Positions 871 through 64,000 of a stretch of DNA of 64,000 nucleotides are shown here, in pieces. Source of the stretch: Maricaulis sp. (GTDB lineage Bacteria; Pseudomonadota; Alphaproteobacteria; Caulobacterales; Maricaulaceae); contig NZ_JAEPOL010000001.1 of assembly GCF_017642925.1 (NCBI RefSeq), forward strand, positions 62,001-126,000, in the 5' to 3' direction. Every line of letters starts with the position of its first letter. Within the stretch, counting starts at the first letter, position 1. The notes under the pieces were generated by a model. That model saw only the letters and a program-made list of their open reading frames with translations. It searched no databases and had not been told where the DNA came from. The translations under genes and the position numbers were made by a program.

Positions 871-931
871 GGGATCATGCCTTGGCAGAAAAGGGTCGGA
901 CGGCGCGTCTTACCCAGCCGGAGCCCAAGCC

Positions 932-2476
932 TCAAGAGCGCTTGAGCGCCGTGCGCACTTCGGACAGGCGCAGGGCGCCGGTCAGGAGCGAGGCAAGCGC
1001 GAAGACGACGAGGCCTGCCGCACACACGGCGGCGAGCACCAGAAGTGTCGAATTGAACAGCCAGGGATAGAGCCAGCCGAGGTTCTGGTGCGCCAGCAGC
1101 AGGAAGCCGGCCATGATCGCGCTGGCCACGACAATGCGCGGCAGGCGGTTGAGCAGGCGGGCATCCGGCTCGAACAGGCCACGCCGGTGAAGTGTCACCG
1201 CGAGCAGCAGCGTGTTGACCCAGCCGGCGACCGAGGTGGCAATGGCGAGCCCGGCAAAGCCGAGCGGACCGAAGAAGAGCGACAGCCCCAGCGCGAGATT
1301 GATCACCACGCCGACCGTCGCGAACTTCATCGGCGTCATTGTGTCCTGGCGCGCAAAGAAGCCGGGTGAGAGGACCTTGATGAGAACGAAGGCAGGCAGG
1401 CCGGCCGCAAAGGCGATCAGCGCCTGGGCAACCATTTGTGCATCCTGAGGCGTGAAGGCGTCGCGCTCGTAGATGCCGGTGGCGATGAAGACCGGGATCG
1501 CCGCCAGCGCCGCTGCGGCCGGCAGGGTCAGCGCCATGGAAATCTCCAGCGCGCGGTTCATCGCATTGCCCGCCGCCGGCAGGTCGCCGGCCCGCAGGCG
1601 CGCGCTCAGCGTCGGCAGCAGCACGACCCCCATCGCGATCCCGACCACGCCCAGCGGCAGTTGATAGAGGCGGTCGGCATAATAGAGCCAGGAGCGCGCA
1701 CCCTCCTGCAGCGTCGCGATGGAGGAGGTGACGAGGATATTGATCTGGGTGACACCGGCCGCCATTGCGCCAGGCACGCCGAGCACGATCAGCCGCTTCA
1801 CATCCGGGGTGAGCTTCGGCAGGCGCACCGACAGCCGCACGCCGGTCGCGCGCGTTGCCGCCCAGAGCCAGATGAGCTGCGCGACTCCCGACACACTGAC
1901 ACCCACTGACAACCATAGCGCCAGCTGGCGACCTTCTGCCGGGGAAAAAGCGAGGATGCCGATCAGGGTGAGGTTCAGCAGGACCGGCGCCGCAGCGGCA
2001 ACCGCAAACTTGCCGTGGGAGTTGAGGACACCGCTGAGCATGGCACTGAGCGACATCATCATGAGGTAGGGCATGGTGATCTGTGTCAGGAGTACCGCCA
2101 GACCGAACAGGCCGGGGTCTCCCACGAAACCCGGCCCCAGCGCATACATCAACCACGGCATGACCAATTGTGCCGCGACCACCAGAACCAGCATGGCTGT
2201 CAGGAGGACCGACAGGACCTGACGGGCAAACAGCTGTGCCTCGGTCAGACCGTCGGCTTCCAGCTTGCCGGCATAGAGCGGCACGAAGGCCGCATTGAAC
2301 GCGCCCTCGGCAAATATCCGCCGAAAAAGGTTGGGGAATTGCAGCGCTGTCAGGAAAACGTCAGTAACCGCGCCTGCGCCCAGCGCCGCCGCCAGCATCA
2401 TCTCGCGCACAAGGCCGAGGACCCGGCTGGCCATGGTGAAAAGTCCGACCACCGCCGAGGACCGAAGAAGACGCAT
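932..2476 (-). CDS. murJ: MurJ, lipid II flippase (MviN family)
   Basis: MurJ moves lipid II across the inner membrane so that peptidoglycan can be polymerised outside. The 514-residue product has the usual family length and is almost wholly hydrophobic, consistent with 14 transmembrane helices. It opens with MRLLRSSAVVGLFTMASRVL, and the SRVLGLVREMMLA stretch is the diagnostic first-helix segment. The FRRIFAEGAFNAAFVPLY region near residues 50-66 is also typical of the family. The gene starts only 4 bp after the glnD stop, so the two are probably co-transcribed and translationally coupled. Nothing looks degenerate. Confidence 0.96.
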   Translation of the reverse strand: MRLLRSSAVVGLFTMASRVLGLVREMMLAAALGAGAVTDVFLTALQFPNLFRRIFAEGAFNAAFVPLYAGKLEADGLTEAQLFARQVLSVLLTAMLVLVVAAQLVMPWLMYALGPGFVGDPGLFGLAVLLTQITMPYLMMMSLSAMLSGVLNSHGKFAVAAAAPVLLNLTLIGILAFSPAEGRQLALWLSVGVSVSGVAQLIWLWAATRATGVRLSVRLPKLTPDVKRLIVLGVPGAMAAGVTQINILVTSSIATLQEGARSWLYYADRLYQLPLGVVGIAMGVVLLPTLSARLRAGDLPAAGNAMNRALEISMALTLPAAAALAAIPVFIATGIYERDAFTPQDAQMVAQALIAFAAGLPAFVLIKVLSPGFFARQDTMTPMKFATVGVVINLALGLSLFFGPLGFAGLAIATSVAGWVNTLLLAVTLHRRGLFEPDARLLNRLPRIVVASAIMAGFLLLAHQNLGWLYPWLFNSTLLVLAAVCAAGLVVFALASLLTGALRLSEVRTALKRS

Positions 2477-2480
2477 GCCG

Positions 2481-5291: not shown

Positions 5292-5325
5292 GACGGCGTC
5301 AATCTAGTCGTGCCGCGGGCCGTCG

Positions 5326-8022: not shown

Positions 8023-8122
8023 CGGCGCAGACGGTGGCGAGGTTTCACCTTGCGTGCAAGGGTGTGAAGCGGCTAGAGCCCATACGATTGTCCATAATCA
8101 AAATAAAGCAGGGAATACGGGG

Positions 8123-10408
8123 ATGAACGACAGAACCAGCCACGTCGAGGACGAAGAAGCGCTCGCCTTTCACAAGGAGCCCGTTCCCGGCAAGCTCGCC
8201 CTGTCTCCGACCAAGCCGATGGCGACACAGCGCGATCTCTCGCTGGCCTATTCGCCCGGCGTGGCTGCGCCGGTGAAGGCGATCGCGGAGAACCCTGACG
8301 CCGTCTACGATTTCACCTCCAAGGGCAATATGGTCGCCGTGATCTCCAACGGCACGGCCATTCTCGGCCTGGGCGATCTGGGCGCCATGGCGTCCAAGCC
8401 CGTGATGGAAGGCAAGGCGGTGTTGTTCAAGCGCTTTGCCGATATCGACGCGATGGACATCGAGGTCGAGGAGACCGATGCCGACGCCTTCATCGAATGC
8501 GTCCGGCGCATCGGCAACACGTTCGGCGGCATCAATCTGGAAGACATCAAGGCGCCGGAAAGCTTCATCATCGAACAGCGCCTGCGCGAACTGCTCGACG
8601 TGCCGGTCTTCCATGACGACCAGCATGGCACGGCGATCATCTCGGTTGCCGGTATCATCAATGCCTGCGACATCACCGGCCGCAAGATCAGCGATCTGAA
8701 AGTCGTGGTGAACGGCGCCGGCGCGGCCGGCATCGCCGTGCTCGAACTTCTCAAGGCCATGGGCGTCAAGCACGAGAACGCGCTGCTGTGCGATTCCAAG
8801 GGTGTCATCCATGCAGAGCGCGACGGGCTGAACCAGTGGAAGGCGGCGCATGCCGCCGACACGGATCGCCGCTCGCTGGCCGAGGCGCTGGACGGCGCCG
8901 ACTGCTTCCTCGGCCTGTCGGTCGCCGGTGCGGTGACCCAGGACATGGTCAAGTCGATGGCCAAGGACCCGATCATCTTCGCGATGGCCAATCCGGATCC
9001 CGAGATCAAGCCGGAAGACGTGCGGGCCGTGCGCGACGACGCCATCATCGCCACCGGCCGCTCGGACTATCCCAACCAGGTCAACAATGTCCTCGGCTTC
9101 CCTTACATCTTCCGCGGTGCGCTGGACGTGCGCGCCCGCACGATCAATGAGGAGATGAAGATCGCCGCCGCCCGCGCCCTCGCCGCGCTGGCGCGCGAGG
9201 ATGTGCCGGACGAAGTGGCCGCCGCCTATCATGGCTCGCGCCCGACATTCGGCCGCGACTACATCATCCCCTCACCCTTCGATCCGCGGCTCATCCACTA
9301 TGTGCCGCCCTATGTCGCCCAGGCTGCGATGGATACCGGCGTCGCACGCAAGCCGATCGCCGACATGACCGCCTACCGGGCCTCGCTGGCCCGGCGTCTC
9401 GACCCGACCGCCGCCCTGCTGCAACGCATCCAGGGCGCGGTGATGGGGCATGGCCGCCGCATCGTCTTTGCCGAGGGCGAGGAGCCGTCGGTGATCCGCG
9501 CCGCCTATGCCTTCCAGAACCAGGAGCTGGGCAAGGCGATCCTGGTCGGCCGCGAAGAGATCACGCGCGCCAACATGCGCCAGGTCGGCGTGCCGGAAGA
9601 CGCGATCGAGATCGTCAACGCCCGCCTGTCCGACCGCAATGCCGATTATGCGGATTTCCTGTATGAGCGTCTGCAGCGCAAGGGCTATCTGCGCCGCGAC
9701 GTGCAGCGTCTGGTCAACAACGACCGCAACGTCTTCTCCGCCTGCATGGTGAAGCTGGGCGATGCCGACGGCATGGTGACGGGCACGACCCGTTCCTATG
9801 CCGCCGCGCTGAGCGATGTCGGCCTCGTGCTCGACCCGGCGCCGGGCCAGCGCGTGATGGGCATGTCGATCGCCCTGGCAAAAGGGCGCACGCTGTTCAT
9901 CGCCGACACCAATATCGCCGAGTTTCCCGACAGCGAGGCGCTGGCCGATATCGCCACGGAGACCGCGGCGGCGGCCAAGGGTTTCGGCTTCACGCCGCGC
10001 GTCGCCTTCCTGTCCTACTCCACCTTCGGCAATCCGCAGGGCCAGCGCTCCGACAAGCTGCAGGAAGCCGTGCGCCTGCTCGACGAGCGCGGCGTGAACT
10101 TCGAATACGAGGGCGAGATGAATGTCGATGTGGCGCTCGACCCGTCACACCGCTTCCTCTACCCCTTCTCGCGCCTGAAGGGTCCGGCCAATGTGCTGGT
10201 CATGCCGGCGATCCACGCCGCCTCCATCGCCACCAAGCTGCTGCGCGTGGCCGGCGGGGCGACCGTGATCGGCCCGATGCTGGTCGGTGTCGAAAAACCC
10301 GTGCAGATCGCCCGCCTCGGCGCCTCGGTCAGCGAGATCACCACGCTGGCGGCGCTGGCTGCATACGACCCGGAAAAGCATGAGGTGGACAGCACGCTGG
10401 CGGAGTAG
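8123..10408 (+). CDS. maeB: NADP-dependent malic enzyme with C-terminal phosphotransacetylase-like domain (MaeB type)
   Basis: The protein decarboxylates malate to pyruvate, yielding NADPH for biosynthesis. I chose the ATG at 8123 (MNDRTSHVEDEEALAFH), which gives 761 residues, the standard MaeB length. The in-frame upstream extension overlaps the mutS promoter region and looks non-coding. The malic-enzyme half has LAYSPGVAAPVKAI, VLFKRFADIDAMDIEVEE (catalytic Lys and metal ligands), HDDQHGTAI and the dinucleotide site NGAGAAGIAV. From about residue 430 a phosphate-acetyltransferase-like domain follows. In this family that domain binds acetyl-CoA as a regulator rather than acting as an enzyme. 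Its stop is 3 bp from that of the convergent transporter gene. Confidence 0.96.
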   Translation: MNDRTSHVEDEEALAFHKEPVPGKLALSPTKPMATQRDLSLAYSPGVAAPVKAIAENPDAVYDFTSKGNMVAVISNGTAILGLGDLGAMASKPVMEGKAVLFKRFADIDAMDIEVEETDADAFIECVRRIGNTFGGINLEDIKAPESFIIEQRLRELLDVPVFHDDQHGTAIISVAGIINACDITGRKISDLKVVVNGAGAAGIAVLELLKAMGVKHENALLCDSKGVIHAERDGLNQWKAAHAADTDRRSLAEALDGADCFLGLSVAGAVTQDMVKSMAKDPIIFAMANPDPEIKPEDVRAVRDDAIIATGRSDYPNQVNNVLGFPYIFRGALDVRARTINEEMKIAAARALAALAREDVPDEVAAAYHGSRPTFGRDYIIPSPFDPRLIHYVPPYVAQAAMDTGVARKPIADMTAYRASLARRLDPTAALLQRIQGAVMGHGRRIVFAEGEEPSVIRAAYAFQNQELGKAILVGREEITRANMRQVGVPEDAIEIVNARLSDRNADYADFLYERLQRKGYLRRDVQRLVNNDRNVFSACMVKLGDADGMVTGTTRSYAAALSDVGLVLDPAPGQRVMGMSIALAKGRTLFIADTNIAEFPDSEALADIATETAAAAKGFGFTPRVAFLSYSTFGNPQGQRSDKLQEAVRLLDERGVNFEYEGEMNVDVALDPSHRFLYPFSRLKGPANVLVMPAIHAASIATKLLRVAGGATVIGPMLVGVEKPVQIARLGASVSEITTLAALAAYDPEKHEVDSTLAE

Positions 10409-10411
10409 GGA

Positions 10412-12037
10412 TCAGCTGTCTTCGACGGTCTCGCGCTCGGCGAATTTGTATTCGCCGCGGGCCGCTTTCGGGCCGAAGAGCAAGATCACTGCCAACAAGA
10501 TGCCGGCGGGAATGGTCCAGGCCGCGGTTAGAACGAAGAACATCACCCAGCCCACGGCGTCGGCTAGGACGCCGGAGAAGCCCGACAGGAATTTCGCGAA
10601 CAGGGCATAGAAGGAGCTGACCCAGGCATACTGGGTCGCGGCACTGGCGGGATCGACCAGGCTGGACAGATAGGCGATGAAGACCGTCGTGACAAAGCCA
10701 CCGGCAAGGTTGTCACCCACAATGGCCACGGTGAGCTTCCAAGCGTCCTCGGGCTGGGCGGTCGCTGCCAGCCAGGCAAATGCACCATTTGTGATCAGGG
10801 TAATCAAAAGGCCCACCACCAGGGCCCGCATCATTCCGATGCGATAGGCTACGACACCACCGATAAACAGTCCGACAAAGGTGGATATCAGCCCCGGCCC
10901 GCCCTGGACGGCACCGACGACGGCGCGGTCGAAGCCTAGGTCCGAATAGAGTGGCGACGCCATTACGCCCATGGTGAAGTCACTGATGCGGTAGAGCGAA
11001 ATCAGCGCGACGACGGCAATGATCCACCAGCCGAGCCGCTCGAAGAAGTCCTTGAAGGGCTGCCAGACGGCGCGGACAACTTTCATTCCCAAGGAGCCTT
11101 CCAACTCACGGCGGCCGGTCCCGGCCTTGGGTTCCTTCATGAAAAAGACCAGCGCTGCCGTGATCGCCATCGCCGTGGCCATGACCAGGAAGGAGGCGTG
11201 CCAATTGACCCATTCCGATATCGCCAGACCCAGGCTGGAGGTGAGATAGGCGATGCGGTAGCCGAAGGAATAGGCCGCCGCCATGTTGGCCTGGAGGTCG
11301 TTGGGCGCCGACTCGATCCGCCAGGCGTCAATCGCGACATCAAGCGTCGCGCCGGAATAGGCCAGCAACAGCGCCGCGATCATAATGGGGAACAGAATGG
11401 TGAAACTGCGATAGTCCGACAGGGCTTCGAAATGCTCATCCTCACGGACGATTTCGAGCAGGCGGCGGTAGTCGTCGGCCGGGAGCAGTACCGTCTCGGT
11501 ACCGTCGACGTCGGTTTCGCGGGTGTAGCCAGCCGTCAGGAGGGCCGCGTCGCTCTCGGTCAGGAGGTCCTCTTCCTCGGCGAAAGCCAGCGAGTCCGTA
11601 AGGACCGCATATTCGCCGGCGCTGATCTGCGCCAGGCGCTCGCCGTCCGTGCCCTCCAGATAATTTGCTCCGGTCGGGTCGTTCGTGGAGAGCATCGCCA
11701 GCGCAACCACCGTGCCGGCAATCGCCGTCACGATCCAGGACCGCCGGGCGCCCAGAAGCTTGTGCAACCCCGGCAATTTCACCCGGTCGACGACCGGCGC
11801 CCAGAGCCATTTCAGAGAATAGGACAGGGTGACGAAGTAGAAAAAGCCGATCGTCGAGCGCTCGATACCGGCGTCGCGCAGCCAGTAGGACAGTTTCTGA
11901 AACACCATGTAGAGCGGCAGGCCCGAGGCGAAGCCCAGGATCAGCATGGAGAGCATGACCGGGGTGAAATAGACGGTGAGCGTCTTGAGCCAGGTGGTGC
12001 GGCCGGCCGCACCGATCTCCGCATTGCTGTCGGCCAT
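10412..12037 (-). CDS. AmpG-like major facilitator superfamily transporter with a large loop insertion
   Basis: This is a 541-residue membrane transporter. The N-terminal PVMLSMLILGFASGLPLYM, the KWLWAPVVDR motif and SGATLDVAIDAWRIE (228-242) are hallmarks of AmpG-type muropeptide or related MFS permeases. Residues about 119-208, between helices 3 and 4, form an acidic hydrophilic insertion predicted to face the periplasm. Typical AmpG has only a short loop there. The gene follows the hybrid histidine kinase by 27 bp in the same direction. No ampC- or ampR-like gene is nearby, so the substrate (anhydromuropeptide or another) is not established. Confidence 0.85.
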   Translation of the reverse strand: MADSNAEIGAAGRTTWLKTLTVYFTPVMLSMLILGFASGLPLYMVFQKLSYWLRDAGIERSTIGFFYFVTLSYSLKWLWAPVVDRVKLPGLHKLLGARRSWIVTAIAGTVVALAMLSTNDPTGANYLEGTDGERLAQISAGEYAVLTDSLAFAEEEDLLTESDAALLTAGYTRETDVDGTETVLLPADDYRRLLEIVREDEHFEALSDYRSFTILFPIMIAALLLAYSGATLDVAIDAWRIESAPNDLQANMAAAYSFGYRIAYLTSSLGLAISEWVNWHASFLVMATAMAITAALVFFMKEPKAGTGRRELEGSLGMKVVRAVWQPFKDFFERLGWWIIAVVALISLYRISDFTMGVMASPLYSDLGFDRAVVGAVQGGPGLISTFVGLFIGGVVAYRIGMMRALVVGLLITLITNGAFAWLAATAQPEDAWKLTVAIVGDNLAGGFVTTVFIAYLSSLVDPASAATQYAWVSSFYALFAKFLSGFSGVLADAVGWVMFFVLTAAWTIPAGILLAVILLFGPKAARGEYKFAERETVEDS

Positions 12038-12064
12038 GTCCCTGAAACTCCAGCGGGGTTGAGA

Positions 12065-14371
12065 TCAGCCCATGCTGGCGCGCTTTTTCCGTCCGCACAA
12101 GTTAACGAGAACAGAGGTCAGACGGTCGGGATCGAGGGGTTTGGAGAGGAATTCGTCCATCCCGGCGCCCAGGCACAGCTTGCGGTCGCTTTCCGAGGCA
12201 TTGGCCGTCAGTGCGATCAGCGGCAGGGTCAGTCCGGCTTCGCGCGCCTTGCGGGCGACATCCGGCCCGTCGCGCTTGGGCATGCGCTGATCGAGCAGGG
12301 CGGCGTCGAATTCCTGCACCGCCAGCGCTTCGCTGGCGGCTTCACCATCGGTCACGAGCGTGACGGCAATGCCCAGGCTCTCCAGGCATTTGCGGGCAAT
12401 GAGAGCGTTGACCGGATCGTCCTCCGCGACCAGCAGGCTGAGGCCGGAAACATCGGGCTGTACGGACGGCCGTCGCGGCGCTTCGGCGTCCGGCCCGTCT
12501 TCACGGCCGGTCAGCCGGTCGACCAGGGTTGCGGAGCGGACCGGTTTGACGAACCAGCCCTGGCCGGGCCCTGCGGTTTCGATGACCGCCGCCTTCTGGT
12601 CCGGCCCGACCAGGTGCCAGGTCCGCACGACGCCCGTTTCGGCAGCGGCCGCCGCCCAGACCGGATCGACGAGAAGTTCCCGGCCATCGGCCTCCGCGGC
12701 GAGCGCGTCGGGCGAGTCGATTGCCAGGGCGTCGGCCCCGAGTGCCTGCAGCTGGTCGCACAGGCTCGTGCGCAGAATGGTATTGGGCGCAGCGACCGCG
12801 ACCCGGTATCCCGTCAGCGGCCGTGCATCCATCACCGCCTCGACGGGCAGGTCGAACACGACCCAGAATTTCGCGCCTTCGCCCAGCCGGCTTTCCAGGC
12901 CCATCGTGCTGTCCATGGCTTCCACAAGCCGGCGCACCATGGCGAGACCCAGGCCGGCGCCGCCCTCGGCACCGTCACGTTCCGCAGCACCGCGCTCGAA
13001 ATGCTCGAACAGGGTCTGCTGGTCGGCCTCGGCAATGCCCGGCCCGGTATCGCTGACCGAGAGCGCCAGACGCACCGCGCCATCGGCGCCGGGTGTGCCG
13101 GTGATGTCGACCCGCACACCGCCGGACCGCGTGAATTTCACCGCATTGCCGATCAGGTTGAACAGGATCTGGCGCAGGCGCGCGGCGTCGCCGATGACAC
13201 GCACCGGGGCACCGGCGGCCTGCACGACCCCGATTTCGAGCCCTTTCTCGCGGGCCCGCGGCGCCGCGAGCTCGACGGTTTCGCGCACCAGTTCGGCGAC
13301 ATCGACCGGTTCGGGACGCAGATCGAGCTTGCCGGCCTCCAGACGCGACAGGTCGAGAATATCGTCCACCATCGCCAGCGCATGATCGGCCGATGTGGCG
13401 ATCGAGCGGACATAGTCGGCCTGGTCCGGACGCAATGGTGTGGCTTCCAGCAGGCGGGCAACCCCCAGCGCGCCGGCCAGCGGCGTGCGCAGCTCATGGG
13501 TGACAGCGGCGAAGAACAGGGATTTGGCGCGCTGCGACGCTTCCAGATCGTCATGCGCCTCACGGCGGCGGGTGACGTCGCGCCCGACGGAGATCACGCC
13601 GCCATCGTCAGGCAGGAGGCGCTCGTCCCATTCGATCCAGACCGGACCGGAGCGCGTGCGCATCAGCATTTCGTAACGTCGCTGATCGGCGGTCGATACC
13701 GGCGGCGCCACGGAGAACCAGCGTCCGACCCAGTCGGTCCGCTCGCCGCCGAATGCCGCGAGAAAGGCGGCATTGACGTAGAGCACGCGGCCGCTATGGC
13801 TGCGCACCAGCATCAGCTCACCCGCCGCATCGAGCGCTGTGAGAAGCACAGTGTCGAGCGAGGGCTCGGCCTGCAGCCGGCGTGGTCCGGGCTCTCTGGC
13901 AGGAGCGGCATGGCCGGCGCCGCGACCGGGGAGACGCGTGATCGATCCGCTGTCCGGGTCTGCGACGCGACCCGGCGCCTGGTCCGGGCTTGTGTTCCCG
14001 TCACGCTGTTCCGTGTCAATAGGACCTTGGTCATTGGCGCCTGCGTCGCTGGGGGCCGTGTTACCGTGCCCGGCATTGTTGCAATCGGCATCGCCGCGTA
14101 AGGCGTCACTGCGACCGGGCTCACCGCGACCGGGATCGCTTTGACCGGCATCGCTTTGACGGGCTGCCTGCCGTGCCGCGGAACCTGTCGGGCGGATGAT
14201 TTGCGCACGGCGGCGCATGGGGTTTGGCGCAGACGCTTTCTCAGCCCCGGCGTCCGCGCGCCGGTCTGCATAGCCCTGCCTGTCGCTCTCGCCCGCCGTG
14301 CCGGTGCGGGAACCGTCCCGCGGCGCGCCAGGGGGAGGCCCGGAGGATCCGTCTTTGCCGTCCCGTTTCAT
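12065..14371 (-). CDS. Hybrid sensor histidine kinase with PAS-like and two receiver-type domains
   Basis: This 768-residue soluble hybrid kinase has no evident membrane helix. Residues 1-165 are a low-complexity, charged Gly/Asp/Arg/Pro linker. A PAS-like sensor follows at about 172-270. The H-box contains His292 (THELRTPLAG) and the catalytic domain has N-box Asn409, DTGPG (441-445) and GAGLGLAMV. Residues about 520-620 resemble a degenerate receiver lacking the acidic pocket but keeping a KP pair. A canonical receiver follows with acidic residues at 650-652, phospho-acceptor Asp694 and Lys744. The stimulus and the downstream phosphotransferase are unknown. The start is uncertain because of the unusual N-terminal stretch. 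Confidence 0.88.
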   Translation of the reverse strand: MKRDGKDGSSGPPPGAPRDGSRTGTAGESDRQGYADRRADAGAEKASAPNPMRRRAQIIRPTGSAARQAARQSDAGQSDPGRGEPGRSDALRGDADCNNAGHGNTAPSDAGANDQGPIDTEQRDGNTSPDQAPGRVADPDSGSITRLPGRGAGHAAPAREPGPRRLQAEPSLDTVLLTALDAAGELMLVRSHSGRVLYVNAAFLAAFGGERTDWVGRWFSVAPPVSTADQRRYEMLMRTRSGPVWIEWDERLLPDDGGVISVGRDVTRRREAHDDLEASQRAKSLFFAAVTHELRTPLAGALGVARLLEATPLRPDQADYVRSIATSADHALAMVDDILDLSRLEAGKLDLRPEPVDVAELVRETVELAAPRAREKGLEIGVVQAAGAPVRVIGDAARLRQILFNLIGNAVKFTRSGGVRVDITGTPGADGAVRLALSVSDTGPGIAEADQQTLFEHFERGAAERDGAEGGAGLGLAMVRRLVEAMDSTMGLESRLGEGAKFWVVFDLPVEAVMDARPLTGYRVAVAAPNTILRTSLCDQLQALGADALAIDSPDALAAEADGRELLVDPVWAAAAAETGVVRTWHLVGPDQKAAVIETAGPGQGWFVKPVRSATLVDRLTGREDGPDAEAPRRPSVQPDVSGLSLLVAEDDPVNALIARKCLESLGIAVTLVTDGEAASEALAVQEFDAALLDQRMPKRDGPDVARKAREAGLTLPLIALTANASESDRKLCLGAGMDEFLSKPLDPDRLTSVLVNLCGRKKRASMG

Positions 14372-14597
14372 GCCGTCCTGTCTAGCAGGGGACGGTTAAC
14401 GAAGCGTCGTGACCGCCCCTCCGCGCACACCACAAGGCCTGGCGCAGCGCAACGCCGGGCGCAACCCGGCAGCGGCAGGAGGTTGCGCCGCGCCGGATCG
14501 CGCCCGGGCCTCCGGAGCCCGGTTTTGATGTCCTATTCACGGCTCTGTCCCAGACCGGCCAGCGGACGCACCGCAGGGCCCTGCACGGGCATGCCTC

Positions 14598-16133
14598 CTA
14601 TTGCGCCGCCAGTACCGCACCGGATGACATCTGCGTCGCCTCGAACAGGCCGCGCCGGCAGGCCAGCGCTTCGGCAATATGGATGCGGCGTACGCCCTCC
14701 TGGCCTTCCAGATCGGCAATGGTCCGGGCGACGCGCAAGACGCGGTGATAGGAGCGGGCGGTGAGATTGTGCGCCGTCGCCGCCTCGTTGAGCAGAGCCT
14801 CGCCCGGCCGGTCCGGCGTTGCGACATGGTCGAGAATATCGGTTGGCAGATGGGCGTTGAGATAGCCGCGCGCCGCCTGGATCTCGCGAGCCCGGGCGAC
14901 ACGCCGGGCAGCTTCGGCGGTGCCTTCGGCCGGCGGCGGGAGGGCCAGATCGGCCGGCGTGACGGCCGGGACGTGGATCTGGAGGTCGATCCGGTCGAGC
15001 ATCGGACCGGAGATGCGGGCCTGATAATCACGCGCGCAGCGCGGACCGCGGCGGCAGCCCTGCCCGCCATCCCCGCCACCGCCACAGCGGCAGGGATTCA
15101 TGGCAGCGACGAGCTGAAAACGCGCCGGATAGGCGATATGGGCATTGGCTCGGGCGACGGTGATCGAGCCGGTTTCCAGTGGCTGGCGTAGACTGTCTAG
15201 CACCTGGGGATGAAATTCCGGCAGTTCGTCGAGAAACAGCACGCCGCGATGGGCGAGCGAAGCCTCGCCCGGCCGGGCGCGCATGCCCCCGCCGACCATC
15301 GCCGCCATCGAAGCGGAATGATGCGGCGAGCGGAAGGGACGGGTGCGTGTCAGGCGCCCGCGCTCGAGCAGGCCCGCAACCGAGTGGATCATCGAGACGT
15401 CGAGCAATTCTTCCGGCGCCAGCGCTGGTAGGAGGCCCGGCAGGCGCTCGGCCATCATCGACTTGCCGGAACCGGGCGGCCCCACCATCAGGAGATTGTG
15501 GTGACCGGCGGCAGCGATCTCCAGCGCGCGCTTGGCCGCTTCCTGACCGCGGACCTGGGCGAGGTCCGGCCCCGTGCCGGCATCGAGCAATTCGCCCGGC
15601 ACCGGACGGGCAAGCACCTGGGTGCCCTTGAAGTGATTGATCAGCTGGATCAGCGTCGCCGGTGCCAGGATGGCCAGATCGCCCCCGGCCCAGGCCGCTT
15701 CGGCACCGCAGGCGTCCGGACAGATCAGCGACAGGCCGGCCGCGTTGGCAGCAACGGCGGCCGGCAGCGCCCCCGGCGCCGAGCGGATTCGCGCATCGGC
15801 TCCCAGCTCGCCGAACACCAGATGCCCCTCGACAGCATCCTTGGGCAGTATGCCCATTTCCGCGAGCACGCTGACGGCGATCGGCAGGTCGAAATGCGCC
15901 CCTTCCTTGGGGCGGTCGGCCGGCGCGAGATTGACGATCAACCGCTTGGACGGCAGCGACAGGCCCAGCGCCGCAAATGCCGCACGCACCCGCTCGCGGC
16001 TTTCCGTGACCGCCTTGTCGCCCAGACCGACGACGGAAAAGATCGGTTGCTGACCGCCCGCTACCTGGACTTGTACGTCAACCAGGCCCGCTTCAGCCCC
16101 GTCGAACGCCACCGATGTCGTTCGCGCTGCCAT
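14598..16133 (-). CDS. comM: ComM/YifB-family Mg-chelatase-like AAA+ ATPase
   Basis: ComM is a hexameric helicase that promotes branch migration during natural transformation; relatives are annotated YifB. I chose the ATG at 16133 (MAARTTSVAFDGAEAGLV) because an AGGGAG ribosome site lies just upstream, giving 511 residues, the usual size. The N-terminal Lon-protease-like fold contains VGLGDKAVTESRERVRAA. Walker A is GPPGSGKSM, and LFLDELPEF is Walker B. AMNPCRCG with several further cysteines is the zinc-binding insertion of the family. Whether this organism is competent cannot be judged from the window. Confidence 0.94.
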   Translation of the reverse strand: MAARTTSVAFDGAEAGLVDVQVQVAGGQQPIFSVVGLGDKAVTESRERVRAAFAALGLSLPSKRLIVNLAPADRPKEGAHFDLPIAVSVLAEMGILPKDAVEGHLVFGELGADARIRSAPGALPAAVAANAAGLSLICPDACGAEAAWAGGDLAILAPATLIQLINHFKGTQVLARPVPGELLDAGTGPDLAQVRGQEAAKRALEIAAAGHHNLLMVGPPGSGKSMMAERLPGLLPALAPEELLDVSMIHSVAGLLERGRLTRTRPFRSPHHSASMAAMVGGGMRARPGEASLAHRGVLFLDELPEFHPQVLDSLRQPLETGSITVARANAHIAYPARFQLVAAMNPCRCGGGGDGGQGCRRGPRCARDYQARISGPMLDRIDLQIHVPAVTPADLALPPPAEGTAEAARRVARAREIQAARGYLNAHLPTDILDHVATPDRPGEALLNEAATAHNLTARSYHRVLRVARTIADLEGQEGVRRIHIAEALACRRGLFEATQMSSGAVLAAQ

Positions 16134-16257
16134 GCTTTCTCCCTGACGTACCGGGAAATAGAATCGACGAGCAGCCGCATGTGTCGCACAATGCCGCTCA
16201 CCGGGCCTTTCTGCCACGATCGCACAGCGACCGTTCTAAAGGCCCATCATGACAGGG

Positions 16258-16266
16258 TTTTCCACA
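16258..16266 (+). promoter_or_regulatory. Exact match to the DnaA-box consensus
   Basis: TTTTCCACA fits TTWTNCACA at every position. It lies in the 184-bp gap between comM and gshB. A weaker copy (CTGTCCACA, two mismatches) follows about 10 bp later. A single nine-base match can occur by chance, so function is uncertain. Confidence 0.35.
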
Positions 16267-16317
16267 GACCCTGTCCACACCCGGATCAAAACAGGAACAC
16301 AGAGTGAACGAAGACAA

Positions 16318-17286
16318 TCAACACGTCAAGCGTGTATTATAGATGGCCAGCCGTTTTTCGACGCAGTCCCAGAAAATGGCGCAGGTATCGATGCCGGAGA
16401 AACGCTTGAGCTCCTGTACGCCGGTCGGCGAGGTGACGTTGATCTCCGTCATCCGCCCGCCGATCACATCGATCCCGACCAGGACCAGGTCCCGCTCGCG
16501 CAGGACCGGGCCAATCGCGGCACAGATCGCACGGTCGGCATCATCGAGTTCGGAAGCCTCAGCCACACCGCCGACATGCATGTTCGAACGGGTCTCGCCC
16601 TTCTGCGGCACGCGATTGATCGCGCCCACGGGCTCGCCATCGATGAGAAGGACGCGCTTGTCGCCCTTCTCGACGGCCGGCAGGAAGGCTTGGGCGACAA
16701 CGGGTTCACGCGACTGGGCAAAGAACATTTCCAGCAGCGAGGAGAAATTGCCGTCGCCGGGGCGCAGCCGGAACACGCCGGCGCCGCCATTGCCGTAGAG
16801 CGGCTTGATGATGATGTCGGAATGGGTGTCGCGGAAGGCCCGCAGCGCGCCGATATCGCGCGAGATCAGCGTCGGCGGGATCAGGTCCGGAAACAGCAGC
16901 GGCATGATCTTTTCCGGGCTGGAGCGCACCCAGGCCGGGTCGTTCAGCACCAGGGTCCGCCCCTTGAGGAATTCCAGGATGTGGGCGGCGGTCTGGTAGG
17001 CCATGTCGAAGGGCGGATCCTGGCGCATCAGGACGACATCGACATCCTCGGCCAGGTCCAGCATGACGGGTTCGCCAAGATCGGCATGATTGCCCTGCTC
17101 GTGCCGTACGGTCACCGGACGCGCCCGTGCCAGCACACGGCCCTGCAGCCAGACAAGCTGGTCGGGATGGTAGACGAAGAGCTCGGCACCACGGGCCTGG
17201 GCTTCTTCCATCAGGGCGAACGTGGTGTCTGCATCCACATTCACCGTCTCGATCGGGTCCATCTGGACCGCAACGCGCATGGTCAT
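16318..17286 (-). CDS. gshB: Glutathione synthetase (GshB)
   Basis: GshB joins gamma-glutamylcysteine and glycine in the second, ATP-dependent step of glutathione synthesis. The product is 322 residues from the ATG at 17286 ([20 protein letters not shown]), which has GGAG eight bases upstream; an ATG six bases later is possible. [31 protein letters not shown] and [15 protein letters not shown] are conserved GshB/ATP-grasp segments. The start codon overlaps the stop of the upstream BON-lipoprotein gene in a TGATG junction, so the two are translationally coupled. gloA at 39.1 kb would depend on the product. Confidence 0.97.
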
Positions 17287-17945
17287 CAACGTGTCTCCGG
17301 GGCGCCCAGCAATTGCGGACCGGAGTTAGGGGTTTCCGCCGCCGGATCAAGAGCCGGGCGGGCTTCCCCCTCACACACTTCCGCGCGGCGCTCGCCGCGG
17401 GCAGGCAGATCGGTGGGCACACCATCGATGCGCACATAGGTGATCACTTCTTCCACCCCCTCGACCAGCGAGGCATGGCTGGACGCGCGCTCGAGCTCGG
17501 CCCGGTTGCGGGCAACGCCGAGCAGGTAGACATGGCCGGCGCGGGTCTCGACATTGAAATTGATCGAGCGGATGTTGCGGTCGGCGGCCAGGCGCGCATT
17601 CACCCGCGCCGTGATCTGGCCGTCGCGGACCCGGTTGCGGAAACCGTCGCCCGGACCGACCTCCAGCTCGTTGGCCACATTGCGCACAGCGACCGACGAC
17701 CAGGCCAGGCATTCCGCCATGCGCCTGTCGGCCTCGCGCGGCACGGCGCCGGTCAGAAGGGCAATCCCCTCGGTGACCTCCACATCGACGCCATCGAGTG
17801 CATAGCCCTCGGTGCGCAGCATCGCCGCCTTGATCGAGACGGAGGCATTCGTGTCGTCCAGCTGGCGGCCGATGGAGCGCTCTTCCTGCACCGTTGAACA
17901 GGCGGTCAGCAGGGCGAGGGCAGGCAGGGCCAGAATGCGGAACAT
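17286..17945 (-). CDS. BON-domain outer-membrane/periplasmic lipoprotein
   Basis: This 219-residue protein starts [19 protein letters not shown], a type II signal peptide with lipobox cysteine Cys16. Two BON domains follow: about 30-100 ([21 protein letters not shown], then a [10 protein letters not shown] end) and about 105-180 ([32 protein letters not shown], then [11 protein letters not shown]). BON domains bind phospholipid surfaces and support envelope integrity, as in OsmY and DolP. The C-terminal 40 residues are acidic and unstructured. Its TGA stop overlaps the gshB start. I cannot say why these two are coupled, although the arrangement is striking. Confidence 0.88.
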
Positions 17946-18037
17946 GGGGACGCTCTCCAGTCGAATCGTGCGGTTCACTCTACGCGATGGGACGCGCAAG
18001 ACCACGTCCCGGTTCCCGGCCCATGTGCAGAGAAGCG

Positions 18038-18424
18038 TCAGATCAGGCTGACCGCGCCATCGCCGGGGACCCAGGCCGCACGATGATGCACCGGAAGCCG
18101 CCCCGGCGCGACCAGAAACAGATCGTACCGCACGAACAGCCGCCGGAAGCGCGCATCGTGCCGGGCGAGCCACAGGCTGGCGGCCCGTTCGATGCGCTGG
18201 CGCTGGCGCGGACCGACGGAGTCGCGCGCCTCGGCGACCGACGGGCGCAGCTTGACCTCGATGAAGGTGATGTACTCGCCGCGGCAGGCGACAAGATCGA
18301 CCTCGCCGGCCGGCGTACGGGCGCGGCGGTCGAGCAGGCGATAGCCTTTTGCCGCCAGCCAGGCCATGGCCAGCCATTCCGCCCAGCGGCCGCGAGCCTC
18401 CGCTGCCTGCCGGGCCCGGCTCAC
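18038..18424 (-). CDS. YraN family endonuclease-like protein (UPF0102)
   Basis: This 128-residue protein has the UPF0102/YraN core: a restriction-endonuclease-like fold with GEVDLVACRGEYITFIEVKLR, where Asp, Glu and Lys form the PD-(D/E)xK-type cluster. Its biological role is unsettled. The gene begins with GTG at 18424, overlapping the rsmI stop (GTGA), so it is coupled to rsmI. The rsmI-yraN pairing is common in proteobacteria. Confidence 0.9.
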   Translation of the reverse strand: MSRARQAAEARGRWAEWLAMAWLAAKGYRLLDRRARTPAGEVDLVACRGEYITFIEVKLRPSVAEARDSVGPRQRQRIERAASLWLARHDARFRRLFVRYDLFLVAPGRLPVHHRAAWVPGDGAVSLI

Positions 18425-19326
18425 CCCTTGTCCCGCAGCGCCAGGGCGCGGGCATAGACATCGCGTTTGGCCCAGCCGGACTGGGCGGCGATCTCGGCCG
18501 CGGCATCCTTGACCCGCATCTCCGCGAGCACGCGTTTCAGCGCCGCATCGATGCGCGCCTCGTCCCAGCCGGTCTCGCTGGGCGGGCCGATCACGATCAC
18601 CACCTCGCCGCGCGGCGGACCGGCCTCGGCATAGTGTTCCGCCAGTCCGGCGAGCGTGCCGCGGCGGGCTTCCTCATGCAGCTTGGTCAGTTCGCGGCAG
18701 ACGGCCGCCGGCCGGTCACCCAGCACTTTTGCCATGCTCGCCAGGGAGGCCGGCAGGCGGGAAGCGCCTTCATAGACAACCAGACTGCCCGGCGACCGGC
18801 CCATTTCCGCCAGCCAGGTCTCGCGGGCTCCGGTCTTGGGCGGCGGAAAACCGGCAAAGGTGAAACAGTCGGTCGGCAGGCCGGCAATGGTCAGCGCCGC
18901 CAGAACGGCAGACGCGCCGGGGATCGCGATCACTTTGTGGCCGGCCGCAATAACCTCGCGCGCCAGCTTGAAGCCGGGATCGGAGACGAGGGGCGTGCCG
19001 GCATCGGAGACCAGCGCGATCCGCTTTCCCGCCTCCAGCGCAGCCAGGATGTGCGGCCGGACCTTCTCGCCATTATGGTCGTGATAGGGCTGCAGTTCGG
19101 CCCGGATACCGTAGGCGTCGAGCAAGCGGCGGGAGACGCGGGTGTCCTCGGCCAGAACGCTATCGGCAGCAGCGAGCACGTCGAGGGCGCGCAGGGTGAT
19201 GTCGCGCAGATTCCCGATCGGGGTGGAAACCAGGTAGAGACCGGGCTCCAGTGCTTGCCCCTTTCCACCCGGCCAGATAGCTTCGCGAGAAATTTCATCG
19301 GGTAGTCCGCTCATGCCGTCCGTCAT
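18421..19326 (-). CDS. rsmI: RsmI, 16S rRNA (cytidine-1402-2'-O)-methyltransferase
   Basis: RsmI adds the 2'-O-methyl group at C1402 in the ribosomal decoding centre using S-adenosylmethionine. The 301-residue product has the tetrapyrrole-methylase-type fold: LYLVSTPIGNLRDITLRALDVL near the N-terminus, ADSVLAEDTRVSRRLL, and SDAGTPLVSDPG (SAM pocket). IPGASAVLAALTIAGLPTD and TFAGFPP follow. The start is ATG 19326; an internal Met five codons on would also fit. The divergent lipoprotein gene begins about 31 bp away. Confidence 0.95.
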   Translation of the reverse strand: MTDGMSGLPDEISREAIWPGGKGQALEPGLYLVSTPIGNLRDITLRALDVLAAADSVLAEDTRVSRRLLDAYGIRAELQPYHDHNGEKVRPHILAALEAGKRIALVSDAGTPLVSDPGFKLAREVIAAGHKVIAIPGASAVLAALTIAGLPTDCFTFAGFPPPKTGARETWLAEMGRSPGSLVVYEGASRLPASLASMAKVLGDRPAAVCRELTKLHEEARRGTLAGLAEHYAEAGPPRGEVVIVIGPPSETGWDEARIDAALKRVLAEMRVKDAAAEIAAQSGWAKRDVYARALALRDKG

Positions 19327-19357
19327 TTTTTCGCGTTTTCATTCCTGTCTTTCCAGC

Positions 19358-20656
19358 ATGACACAAAGCGCGGGCTTGCGCGCCTTCGCTGTCATCGGCC
19401 TTGTCGGCTTCGCCGCAGCGGCCTGCAGCACCACGCCGCCGCCCCCGCCGCCGGTCCAGCAACCGCCCGTCACCCAGCCGGAACCGGAGCCCAAGCCGGA
19501 GCCTGAACCCGAGCCGGAAGTGCGCACCGGGCTTATCCCGCCGCACATGGCCGATCGCGATCTCGTTCGCGTCGCCATCCTGCTGCCCTTCTCGGCCGAG
19601 AATGCCGGCGCCCGCACCGAGGCCCTGCGCCTCTTGCGCGCCGCAGAACTGGCGCTGTTCGAGCGCGGCAGTGGCAATCTCCTGATGATTCCCAAGGATA
19701 CCCAGGGCACGCCCGAGGGCGCCCGCGCCGCCGCCATGGCGGCCGCCGGCGACGGTGCCGACATGATTATCGGCCCGCTGTTCGGCCCGGCTGTTTCCGG
19801 TGCCGCCTCGATTGCCCGCCAGGCCAATATTCCGGTCATCGCCTTCACCACGGACACGACGGTGGCGGGCGATGGCGTCTATCTGATGAGCTTCCCGCCG
19901 GAGATCGAGGTCGAACGAATTGTCGAATACGCCGCCCGCCAGGGCGTTGAACGTTTTGCCTATCTGGGTCCGCAGGACCGTTATGGCATGGCGGTCTATG
20001 ATGCCCTGCAGAACAGTGCCGGGCTGAATGGCGGCTATGTCGCCGCGGATTCCTTCTATACCGGCGATGTCGAAGCCATGGCGCGCGCGTCGGCGCGCCT
20101 GGCCAGCGGTGTCTTCGAACCGCTCACTCCGGAAGAAGCACTCGAGCTGCAACGCCAGGAATGGGTGCCGGATCCCGATGCCGCTTTCCAGGCCGTGATC
20201 CTGCCCGAGGGCAGCACGCGCCTGCGCGCCCTGGGCCCGCTGCTGGTCTCGCAGAATGTCGACCCGCTGGTCGTGCGCTTCCTGGGCACCGGCCTGTGGA
20301 ACGATCCGGAACTGCTGCGCGAACCGGCGCTGCATGGCGGCTGGTTTGCCGGCCCCGACCAGGCCGCCCGCGAGCGCTTCGAGACGGCCTATCGCGACGC
20401 CTATGACAGTCCGCCCTCGCGCATCGCCAGCCTGGCCTATGACGCGATGGCCCTGGCCGCACACCTCGATGGCGGCGAGCGCGGCTTCTCGCGCGCGGCG
20501 ATCGAGGAAGAGCAGGGCTTCATGGGGGCAGACGGTCTGTTCCGTTTCCGCTCTGACGGGATGATCGAGCGCGGTCTGGCGATCTTCGAGATCCGCCCGC
20601 GCGGTCTGCGCGAGATCGAACCCGCACCCCTGAGCTTCGAACCGCAGGCCTTCTAG
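19358..20656 (+). CDS. LppC/LpoA-family penicillin-binding-protein activator-like lipoprotein
   Basis: I start at ATG 19358, giving 432 residues and a normal lipoprotein signal (MTQSAGLRAFAVIGLVGFAAAAC, lipobox Cys23, split here only for description). An upstream in-frame ATG at 19313 would overlap rsmI. A Pro/Glu-rich linker (PPPPPP, then repeated PEPEPKPEPEPE) precedes a type I periplasmic-binding fold beginning near LVRVAILLPFSAENAG. The fold continues with ADMIIGPLFGPAVSG, IPVIAFTTD and FAYLGPQDRYG. LpoA members stimulate class A penicillin-binding proteins; the alphaproteobacterial homologue's partner is unproven. Its stop overlaps the convergent hemW stop. Confidence 0.85.
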   Translation: MTQSAGLRAFAVIGLVGFAAAACSTTPPPPPPVQQPPVTQPEPEPKPEPEPEPEVRTGLIPPHMADRDLVRVAILLPFSAENAGARTEALRLLRAAELALFERGSGNLLMIPKDTQGTPEGARAAAMAAAGDGADMIIGPLFGPAVSGAASIARQANIPVIAFTTDTTVAGDGVYLMSFPPEIEVERIVEYAARQGVERFAYLGPQDRYGMAVYDALQNSAGLNGGYVAADSFYTGDVEAMARASARLASGVFEPLTPEEALELQRQEWVPDPDAAFQAVILPEGSTRLRALGPLLVSQNVDPLVVRFLGTGLWNDPELLREPALHGGWFAGPDQAARERFETAYRDAYDSPPSRIASLAYDAMALAAHLDGGERGFSRAAIEEEQGFMGADGLFRFRSDGMIERGLAIFEIRPRGLREIEPAPLSFEPQAF

Positions 20657-37793: not shown

Positions 37794-37809
37794 CGTTGCA
37801 CGTGAAACA
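37794..37809. promoter_or_regulatory. parS-like centromere site (ParB-binding)
   Basis: CGTTGCACGTGAAACA matches the general parS pattern TGTTNCACGTGAAACA at every defined base except the first. It differs from the fully symmetrical TGTTTCACGTGAAACA at two positions. It lies in the 157-bp gap between dapB and the WYL regulator, about 25 kb from the candidate origin. parAB is not in the window. Confidence 0.6.
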
Positions 37810-61369: not shown

Positions 61370-61956
61370 GCCGGGATCACGTCGAATTCGCGCAGCGCAT
61401 CCAGCAGCGGCAGAAGCGGCAGGCCGAGAATGGCGTAGTAGTCGCCGTCGATTTTCTCGAACAATTGCGCGCCCAGACCTTCGAACGCATAGGCACCGAC
61501 GCTGGCGGTCAGGGCAAAACCGGCCCGCTCGAGATAGTCGTCGAGGAAGGCATCGGAAAAGGCGCGCACATGCAGGGTGGAAGATTGCTGGTGCTGCCAG
61601 ACGCATTCACCGTCCCGATAAAGCGCCAGGCCGGAATGCAGCTGGTGCGACCGGCCCCGCATGGCCATCAGGCGATCGCGGGCGAGGGCGGCGTCCGGAA
61701 GCTTGTCGAGGAGTGAGCCGTCCAGTTCCATCGTCTGGTCGGCACCCAATACCAGGGCTTTCGGCCGGCCGCGCGAAACGGCTTCGGCCTTGGCCTTGCC
61801 CAGCACCAGCGCCATCTCGGCCGGCGAGAGATCGCTGCGCTGCTCCTTGATCACGCTCTCATCGACGTCGGGCTTTTCGACCGAGAAATCGATGCCCGCA
61901 TTGTCGAGGATCTGGCGGCGGATCTGGCTGCCGGAAGCGAGGACGAAGTCAGTCAT
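61366..61956 (-). CDS. maf: Maf/YceF-type nucleotide pyrophosphatase
   Basis: Maf proteins hydrolyse modified or canonical nucleoside triphosphates and affect septation. The 196-residue product begins MTDFVLASGSQIRRQILDNAG, the phosphate-binding motif, and contains LVLGADQTM with the catalytic Asp. The YYAILGLPLLPLLDALREF end is also typical. It sits in the ppsR-maf-aroE-coaE chain with ATGA overlaps. The substrate subfamily is not settled. Confidence 0.93.
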   Translation of the reverse strand: MTDFVLASGSQIRRQILDNAGIDFSVEKPDVDESVIKEQRSDLSPAEMALVLGKAKAEAVSRGRPKALVLGADQTMELDGSLLDKLPDAALARDRLMAMRGRSHQLHSGLALYRDGECVWQHQQSSTLHVRAFSDAFLDDYLERAGFALTASVGAYAFEGLGAQLFEKIDGDYYAILGLPLLPLLDALREFDVIPA

Positions 61957-62795
61957 GATTTGGCTGCGCGCTTTTCATTGACGAGATTGATGATCTTGGC
62001 GGCCGTTTCCTCGATCGATCGGCGTGTGACATCGATGGTCGGCCATTTATGCTTGGCGTAGAGCCGCTTGGCGTAAAGGATTTCGTCGCGCACTGCGAAG
62101 TCGTCAATATAATCGGTATCGCGGTCTTCATTCAGGCTCAGCAGGCGATTGCGGCGGATCTGCACGATGCGTTCCGGTGAAGCGGTCAGACCGACAACGA
62201 GCGGATTGCGCAGTTTGAAGATCGCCTCGGGCAGGGGCACATCCTTGACCAGCGGGATATTTGCGGCGCGATAGCCACGATGGGCGAGATAGACGCTGGT
62301 CGGGGTTTTCGAGGTGCGGCTGACGCCCAGCAGCACGATATCGGCCGCTTCATAATCGTCGCCCTGTCCGTCATCATGCGCCATTGTATAATTGAGCGCG
62401 TCGATGCGGCGGAAATATTCGGCGTCCAAGGAGCGCTGGGCGCCGGCCCGGCTAGCCACCGGCCGGCCGAGATAGGTACTCAGCGTGGCGAGCATCGGAT
62501 CGAGCACGGCAATCGCCGGCACGCCGAGCTCGGCACAGCGCGTTTCCAGCTCCCGGCGCAGATCGGCATTGACGATCGTGTACATCACCACGCCCGGATA
62601 GGCTTCCACCTCTTCGAACACGCGCTCCATCTGCCGTGACGAGCGGACCAGGGCGTACAAATGTTCCAGCGGATGCGTGCCTTCGAACTGCGCCACCGAA
62701 GCACGCATCACCTCCATCAATGTCTCACCGGTTGAATCTGACACCATATGGATGTGGAAACATGTTTCGAAGCGTGTGGACGGCGGAACGGTCAT
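61953..62795 (-). CDS. ppsR: PpsR/PDRP, PEP synthase or PPDK regulatory kinase/phosphorylase
   Basis: This protein reversibly phosphorylates PEP synthase or pyruvate phosphate dikinase to switch its activity. The 280-residue product contains FHIHMVSDSTGETLMEVMRAS near the N-terminus and the nucleotide motif GVSRTSKTPTSVYLAHRGYRAANIPLV. It was formerly UPF0085; the Rickettsia homologue is RP001. It starts the four-gene overlapping chain and faces hemE across the candidate origin. Confidence 0.95.
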   Translation of the reverse strand: MTVPPSTRFETCFHIHMVSDSTGETLMEVMRASVAQFEGTHPLEHLYALVRSSRQMERVFEEVEAYPGVVMYTIVNADLRRELETRCAELGVPAIAVLDPMLATLSTYLGRPVASRAGAQRSLDAEYFRRIDALNYTMAHDDGQGDDYEAADIVLLGVSRTSKTPTSVYLAHRGYRAANIPLVKDVPLPEAIFKLRNPLVVGLTASPERIVQIRRNRLLSLNEDRDTDYIDDFAVRDEILYAKRLYAKHKWPTIDVTRRSIEETAAKIINLVNEKRAAKS

Positions 62796-63249
62796 GGCGC
62801 GTTTTTGCCCCTCGATCGCGTTTACGATCTGTTAACAAATTGGGAAAACCGGCCACATTCTGGCCATTCGCTTCCCGCCCTGTGAGTAGTACCGGGTGTT
62901 ACCCGGCGCAACCAACACCTCTTTCCACACGCCGGACGCTGTGAACAAGCCTGTTCAGGAATATCGGCAATTCACAGGGTGTATCTCGTTTTCGACACGA
63001 TATTCTTTGAAGATATGTATCCAGCTTGTTGGATTTAAATAAGAGTTTCGGTTTTAAAACGGCTCGTTCTGGCCGGGGTGTGGATATCGCGCCGTGGACG
63101 GGGATATCCGGCAAAACGGTATAACCGTATTCGCCCACACCATTCACGGCCCTACAATCACATCAATTCAATAAGATGGTTTTGGGAAGAAAAAGGGGCT
63201 GGTGAAAAGGACGCATTGATCGAAAGCCCGCGGATGCCTATCAGGCGGT
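62796..63249. other. Candidate chromosomal replication origin (Cori-like)
   Basis: The 454-bp region between divergent ppsR and hemE holds an AT-rich block (62995-63060). Near-matches to the DnaA box TTWTNCACA with one mismatch lie at 62921-62929, 62940-62948 (minus strand) and 63079-63087 (minus strand); one with two mismatches is at 62968-62976. A CtrA-like box (TTTA-N7-TTAAC) is at 62821-62836. Palindromes GGATATC/GATATCC (63082-63109) and ACGGT-ATA-ACCGT (63116-63128) follow. In Caulobacter and Rickettsia the origin lies between these same two genes. Confidence 0.75.
62821..62836 (+). promoter_or_regulatory. CtrA-like binding box inside the candidate origin
   Basis: TTTA, seven bases, then TTAAC departs from TTAA-N7-TTAAC at one position. 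In Caulobacter, CtrA binds such boxes in the origin to block initiation. Only one convincing box is seen. Confidence 0.4.
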
Positions 63250-64000
63250 ATGACACTGACTTCGAAAAAACCGATGCTCGCCGTCCTCTCCGGAGAGACG
63301 CGCACTCCGCCTCCGGTCTGGCTGATGCGCCAGGCCGGCCGGTATCTCGACGAGTACCGGGAGGTTCGCTCCCGGGCGAAGAATTTCATCGATTTCTGTT
63401 TCTCGCCCGATCTGGCGGCCGAAGTGACTCTGCAGCCGATCCGCCGGTTCGGCTTCGACGCAGCGATCCTGTTTGCCGACATCCTGCTGATCCCGATCGC
63501 ACTGGGCCGCAAGGTCTGGTTCGTCACGGGTGAGGGTCCCAGGCTGGAGCCCTTCGATCCGCTGGCGTTCGAGACGCTGACGCCAGAGCGTGCCCGCGAA
63601 GTGTTGGCACCGGTCGGTGAGACCTTGCGCCGGGTTGCGCCTGAACTGCCAGACGAGACAACGCTGATCGGCTTTGCCGGAGCGCCCTGGACCGTCGCGA
63701 CCTATATGGTCGAGGGCGGGGGATCAAAGGACCGGTTTTCAGCCCGCGTTGCGGCCTGGCAGCACCCGGAAGCCTTTGACGGCATGCTGGACCGGATCGC
63801 CGATGCGACGGCAGAATACCTGGTCATGCAGGCCGAGGCCGGCGCCGAGGTTCTCAAGATTTTCGACAGCTGGGCGGAAGGGCTTCCGGAACCCCTGTTC
63901 GAGCGGGTCGTGATCCGGCCGACAAAGCGGATTGTCGACAAGGTGCGGGCTGCCGGCGTGACCGTGCCGATCATCGGCTTCCCGCGGGGAGCCGGGGCTT
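63250..64000 (+). CDS. hemE: HemE, uroporphyrinogen decarboxylase, 3' end outside the window
   Basis: HemE decarboxylates uroporphyrinogen III to coproporphyrinogen III. ATG 63250 opens 250 codons that run off the right edge; the full protein is usually about 340-350 residues. PPVWLMRQAGRYLDEYREVRS is the N-terminal signature, and FAGAPWTVATYMVEGGGSKD follows. The promoter lies in the candidate origin. The product supplies haem synthesis; hemW at 20.7 kb acts downstream in haem delivery. Confidence 0.96.
   Translation, partial: MTLTSKKPMLAVLSGETRTPPPVWLMRQAGRYLDEYREVRSRAKNFIDFCFSPDLAAEVTLQPIRRFGFDAAILFADILLIPIALGRKVWFVTGEGPRLEPFDPLAFETLTPERAREVLAPVGETLRRVAPELPDETTLIGFAGAPWTVATYMVEGGGSKDRFSARVAAWQHPEAFDGMLDRIADATAEYLVMQAEAGAEVLKIFDSWAEGLPEPLFERVVIRPTKRIVDKVRAAGVTVPIIGFPRGAGA

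Follow-up and report, generated by a model that had tools for sequence, protein, structure and literature searches.

In Caulobacter crescentus, the chromosomal origin of replication (Cori) is located between hemE and a COG1806 (ppsR) gene and is described as an AT-rich region with weak DnaA boxes and CtrA-type sites; its published inventory comprises five CtrA sites, an IHF site, two TGATCCACA G-boxes and five TCCCCA W-boxes (PMC1914354, PMC4285127). The origins of Rickettsia and Wolbachia are likewise described as AT-rich, flanked by hemE and supplied with DnaA and CtrA sites (PMC1914354). In Hyphomonas neptunium, which is placed with Caulobacter in the Caulobacterales (PMC8116508), the reported marker-frequency maximum lies close to hemE, with parAB about 7 kb from that gene (PMC6650430), and CtrA is reported to bind a site that adjoins the origin (PMC7200025). 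For Maricaulis, titles and abstract openings of the open literature, a scope that excludes DoriC and subscription journals, yielded no origin data; the available portions of PMC2877005 and PMC4221894 mention no Maricaulis origin, and the name Maricaulis is absent from the main text of PMC8116508.

The gap between ppsR and hemE in the Maricaulis genome studied here resembles Cori in its flanking genes (hemE and COG1806/ppsR), its AT-richness, its weak DnaA boxes and a candidate CtrA-type site. Compared with Cori as published, however, it contains one CtrA-like site, no exact IHF consensus and no copy of either the G-box TGATCCACA or the W-box TCCCCA, and dnaA of Maricaulis lies 25-188 kb away. 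While GC skew and DnaA sites are described as having given no clear result in H. neptunium, the skew of Maricaulis is clear, and the reported distance of about 7 kb between parAB and hemE in H. neptunium compares with about 12.6 kb from parA to the hemE start in Maricaulis. Wolbachia is described as carrying COG1253 where COG1806 would be, and the site numbers of the Rickettsia and Wolbachia origins differ from those of Maricaulis. In its location, GC skew, AT-richness, DnaA-box cluster and nearby parS/parAB, the Maricaulis gap fits the defining features of the Alphaproteobacterial hemE-ppsR origins of the Cori type. The origin reading is therefore correct and well supported, if unremarkable, and the Maricaulis origin would operate as Cori does, although fewer control sites can be recognised in it.

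The ppsR-hemE gap and its AT-rich core

The window, i.e. the whole 64-kb stretch of DNA that was analysed, corresponds to C20:62001-126000 of genome G000 (3,612,559 bases in 35 contigs). Near its right end, an earlier note had read positions 62796-63249 as a candidate replication origin, consisting of a 454-bp divergent gap between ppsR and hemE with an AT-rich core, paired palindromes and several near-consensus DnaA boxes (62921-62929, 62940-62948 and 63079-63087). The coordinates of the gap proved to be exact, and both flanking genes were confirmed with Pfam profiles. On the left, ppsR (DUF299/COG1806; 61953-62795, minus strand) matches PF03618 with 305.7 bits and NF003742 with 329.8 bits; on the right, hemE (63250-63999, plus strand, cut by the window end; full-length at L123:5250-6287) matches PF01208 with 280.6 bits. 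The PpsR protein matches its counterpart in a Maricaulis metagenome bin (L036) without a single difference and shares 81-91% identity with the PpsR proteins of 17 further genomes of the genus, several of them named Maricaulis, which assigns the genome to this genus.

The divergent arrangement is conserved in relatives. Among 111 ppsR loci, many of which represent one place taken twice, hemE was found at 104, and at all of these the two genes are divergent and separated by 331-551 bp; the seven loci at which hemE had no match offer less than 0.5 kb of upstream DNA in two cases and 1.6-10 kb in five. Elsewhere in the family and order, 27 of 29 additional places show a divergent gap of 320-547 bp, with no hemE match in the stretch taken at the other two. 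One locus, L043 (PANU01000030.1), which is titled Flavobacteriaceae bacterium, has a ppsR/hemE gap of the Maricaulis type and a PpsR that is 87% identical, and the bin therefore looks mislabelled or contaminated.

The AT-rich core of the earlier note is borne out by a GC content of 50.7% in the gap versus 66.3% in the whole window and by the presence in it of 63000-63059, the 60-mer with the lowest duplex stability anywhere in the 64 kb. Only 0.17% of 454-bp segments (step 10) match the AT-richness of the gap, the most AT-rich of all starting at 62821 and thus overlapping it, and the least stable 40-mer and 100-mer of the window also lie inside the gap. We consider 63000-63059 a candidate duplex-unwinding element. 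Its AT-richness recurs across Maricaulis gaps, but its sequence does not; when the region between 100 and 350 bp from ppsR is divided into 50-bp bins, AT content peaks in the 200-250 bp bin in 16 of 19 gaps. A second AT-rich stretch (63152-63211), adjoining hemE, ranks fourth in instability among the non-overlapping 60-mers of the window, and in 18 of the 19 gaps the bin 350-400 bp from ppsR reaches an AT fraction of 0.60 or more.

DnaA boxes, the dyad and the CtrA-like site

In an alignment of 19 distinct Maricaulis gaps (20 loci less one exact duplicate), the strongest conserved blocks are 62820-62844 and 62880-62904, in which the commonest base is shared by a mean of 17.0 and 16.5 of the 19 sequences, respectively, versus 11.6 over the gap as a whole. 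The first and most conserved block, GTTTACGATCTGTTAACAAATTGGG, contains the CtrA-like site TTTA-N7-TTAA at 62821-62835. The second coincides with the left part of a dyad at 62881-62917 (TGTGAGTAGTACCGGGT / ACCCGGCGCAACCAACA; inverted repeat I2), whose 17-nt arms are 71% complementary. Degenerate patterns of the first block and of 62881-62903 each have a single match in the genome at up to three mismatches. The palindromes of the earlier note are present, and the dyad is conserved in the genus: 17 of the 19 Maricaulis gaps, as well as L043, contain its core string at the same place, and 4 of 94 other distinct gaps contain it elsewhere.

The arms of the dyad end in two DnaA-like boxes, R1 (CTACTCACA; 62881-62889, minus strand), which starts with TGTG in 18 of 19 Maricaulis gaps, and F1 (CAACCAACA; 62909-62917, plus strand), which ends in CCCACA, CCAACA, TCCACA, CCCACG or TTCACA in all 19. 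These are followed by F2 (CTTTCCACA; 62921-62929, plus strand), in which CCACA (62925-62929) is present in 19 of 19, and by the partly conserved R2 (TTGTTCACA; 62940-62948, minus strand); a weakly conserved DnaA-like box, ATATCCACA, is found at 63079-63087 on the minus strand. Because F2, R2 and the box at 63079-63087 deviate from the scored consensus TTATNCACA by two, one and one mismatches, respectively, the earlier description of these three as near-consensus is fair, with alignment support being best for 62921-62929, partial for 62940-62948 and least for 63079-63087. A scan against TTATNCACA found no perfect DnaA box in the gap, which was counted against the origin reading.

Chance levels were estimated from dinucleotide shuffles, 500 of them for this gap. 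The gap contains nine DnaA-like sites at up to two mismatches versus a shuffle mean of 3.6, a count reached by 3 of the 500 shuffles, and two sites at up to one mismatch, a count reached by 25; the excess from this single gap alone is suggestive only. When the 19 Maricaulis gaps were pooled, 50 sites at up to one mismatch were counted versus 7.9 in shuffles (about sixfold; maximum of 13 in 40 shuffle sets), together with 56 copies of TCCACA versus 5.8 (maximum of 10), although these gaps are related and so are not independent trials. The DnaA-box cluster thus exceeds chance, clearly so once the 19 related gaps are pooled, and its boxes are weak.

The dyad is present once in the genome and, among the gaps examined, occupies its place only in Maricaulis and L043. 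It is conceivable, if rather unlikely, that the Maricaulis origin has been rebuilt relative to Cori, such that CtrA control has shrunk to one degenerate site and the dyad serves as an initiator core or as the target of a lineage-specific regulator.

The CtrA-like pattern TTWA-N7-TTAA is found in all 19 Maricaulis gaps, in its perfect TTAA-N7-TTAA form in L019 and L022. The gap studied here has one such site, with one mismatch, and its count of TTAA-N7-TTAA sites at up to one mismatch was reached by 108 of 500 shuffles. TTTA-N7-TTAA qualifies as CtrA-type under the loose rule described in PMC1914354, the genome possesses a CtrA gene (L236; NCBIfam NF045991, 435.7 bits), and CtrA binding at 62821-62835 is predicted from the motif. 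Two other response regulators, L232 and L233, were rejected by eye as CtrA. Judged by eye only, the same site also resembles the Caulobacter IHF site TAACGCTCTGTT, which is described as overlapping a CtrA site (PMC4285127); the congener L014 reads TTACGCTCTGTT. The IHF pattern WATCAA-N4-TTR is absent from the gap at up to one mismatch, and WATCA-N5-WTR has no exact match and four one-mismatch matches at 63156-63181, with exact matches in 5 of the 19 Maricaulis gaps; the sequence preference of IHF is loose. CcrM sites (GANTC) are absent from the gap; over the 19 gaps there are 19 versus about 31 in shuffles, a mild shortage (38 versus 62.2, sd 9.9, as counted by a script that scores this palindrome twice).

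GC skew, partition sites and the location of the origin

Cumulative GC skew, which the earlier note had proposed as a check, was computed for nearly the whole of our contig and for samples of two closed congeners, and it placed the origin at ppsR/hemE. The skew analysis covered C20, G015 and G010, with the single-contig relatives G019, G032, G041, G049, G053 and G060 left out. On C20 (320,000 of 320,607 bases), cumulative G-C declines on the whole from the vicinity of dnaA across the window, reaches its minimum at window position 59401, 3.4 kb from the gap, and from there climbs on the whole to the contig end; the best two-state change point is C20:123001 (window 61001). In closed genome G010 (3,142,398 bp), the minimum at 3032617 lies inside the homologous gap (about 3032564-3033004), and in closed genome G015 (3,368,780 bp), the minimum at 3258810 lies 1.8 kb from its gap, these minima being computed over stretches of 278,780 and 200,000 contiguous bases around the site. 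The closed chromosomes were also sampled by stretches of about 20 kb (40 in G015, 30 in G010), with the arms split at the switch points themselves. Skew was positive in 18 of 20 right-arm stretches of G015 and in 14 of 14 of G010 and negative in 19 of 19 and 15 of 15 left-arm stretches, one stretch straddling in each genome. The opposite switch, at about 1.53-1.63 Mb in G015 and about 1.35-1.52 Mb in G010, is about half a chromosome away.

The partition system lies nearby. In our genome, five parS sites at up to one mismatch are all located 5.3-12.2 kb beyond the hemE start, and parA/parB are found at C20:137848-139619, with the parA start about 12.6 kb from that of hemE. In 13 of 14 Maricaulis genomes (our own plus 13 of 18 congeners), parS lies on the hemE side, 5.8-12.8 kb from the ppsR start; the fourteenth has it on another contig. 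In our genome parS and parAB lie within some 15 kb of the gap, as expected of Cori-type origins. Because GC skew, synteny and parS agree on the location at ppsR/hemE, we regard the whole intergenic region, 62796-63249, with high confidence as the putative chromosomal replication origin of Maricaulis, and the original reading of this gap is supported by the skew switch, the proximity of parS and parAB and the conservation of the gap.

In two of the three genomes, the skew minimum is displaced 1.8-3.4 kb to the ppsR side, which was counted against this assignment. Such a displacement would be expected if the true origin were a few kb to the ppsR side and the conserved blocks were promoters or leader elements of ppsR and hemE, and the CtrA-like block, only about 25 bp from the ppsR start, could indeed act on ppsR. 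We consider this very improbable, as the minimum of G010 is inside the gap, which also contains the least stable DNA of the window and an excess of DnaA-like boxes, while simple scans, restricted to the sigma-70 type for promoters, detected neither a promoter of this kind nor a terminator or an Rfam RNA in it, and relatives with mapped or predicted origins are described as using the hemE/ppsR place (PMC1914354, PMC6650430).

An origin at dnaA, as in many bacteria, with the gap a mere divergent promoter region, might be suggested by the numbering of the closed congeners from dnaA (G015:443, G010:530), by the negative skew of the two exceptional right-arm stretches of G015 just past dnaA (those starting at 20001 and 40001, spanning 20001-60000) and by a dnaA only 25.3 kb from ppsR in G004, but it is rejected, as exceedingly improbable, by the skew, which switches at ppsR/hemE and, on our contig, declines on the whole between dnaA and the gap, with no lasting negative-to-positive switch at dnaA in G015 (already positive over 3270001-3368780 and 1-20000) or G010 (positive over 3040001-3100000 and 1-40000, with 3100001-3142398 left out), and by a dnaA-ppsR distance of 109.6-188.3 kb in seven of the eight Maricaulis genomes with both genes on one contig. 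In our genome dnaA is 115 kb from the gap, and in the remaining Maricaulis genomes the two genes are on different contigs. As to the earlier suggestion that the gap gives coordinate zero of the chromosome, zero is a convention of numbering, and both closed congeners have it at dnaA, which lies about 110 kb away from the origin.

Proposed initiation and origin segregation

Based on the motifs and on what is described for Caulobacter and Hyphomonas, we infer that the putative origin at ppsR/hemE is most likely engaged by DnaA at the ordered weak boxes R1-F1-F2-R2 (62881-62948), where DnaA would oligomerise and melt the adjoining AT-rich core. Two forks would then start at 63000-63059, the left one proceeding through the window and the right one through hemE. 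CtrA at 62821-62835 would probably restrain initiation, or else regulate transcription or ppsR, and ParB bound to the parS sites 5-12 kb beyond the hemE start would segregate the new origins. Skew and parS fix the replication start of Maricaulis, which lies about 110 kb from the zero that closed records set at dnaA, and a base-level map of the candidate sites within it is now available for testing. Our comparison suggests that the hemE-ppsR position of the origin holds while its internal control sites turn over within one order.

In the wider set, parS is present in 59 of 61 genomes. Among the matches listed, parS is found on the ppsR side in the family and order genomes G043, G047, G039, G019, G029, G026 and G050, with a distance of about 54 kb in both G047 and G039; the parS cluster therefore switches sides within the order. 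Four of the 14 Maricaulis genomes possess an extra one-mismatch parS site 19-23 kb off on the ppsR side. A parS-like palindrome variant, TGTTTCACGTGCAACA, is found in five Maricaulis genomes on the ppsR side of the origin, at a distance of 19-25 kb and apart from the parAB-proximal cluster, at G010:C1:3055830, G012:C4:216593, G014:C3:171362 and G015:C1:3276449 in congeners and, as a copy one base further off, at window 37794-37809 (G000:C20:99794-99809) in our genome.
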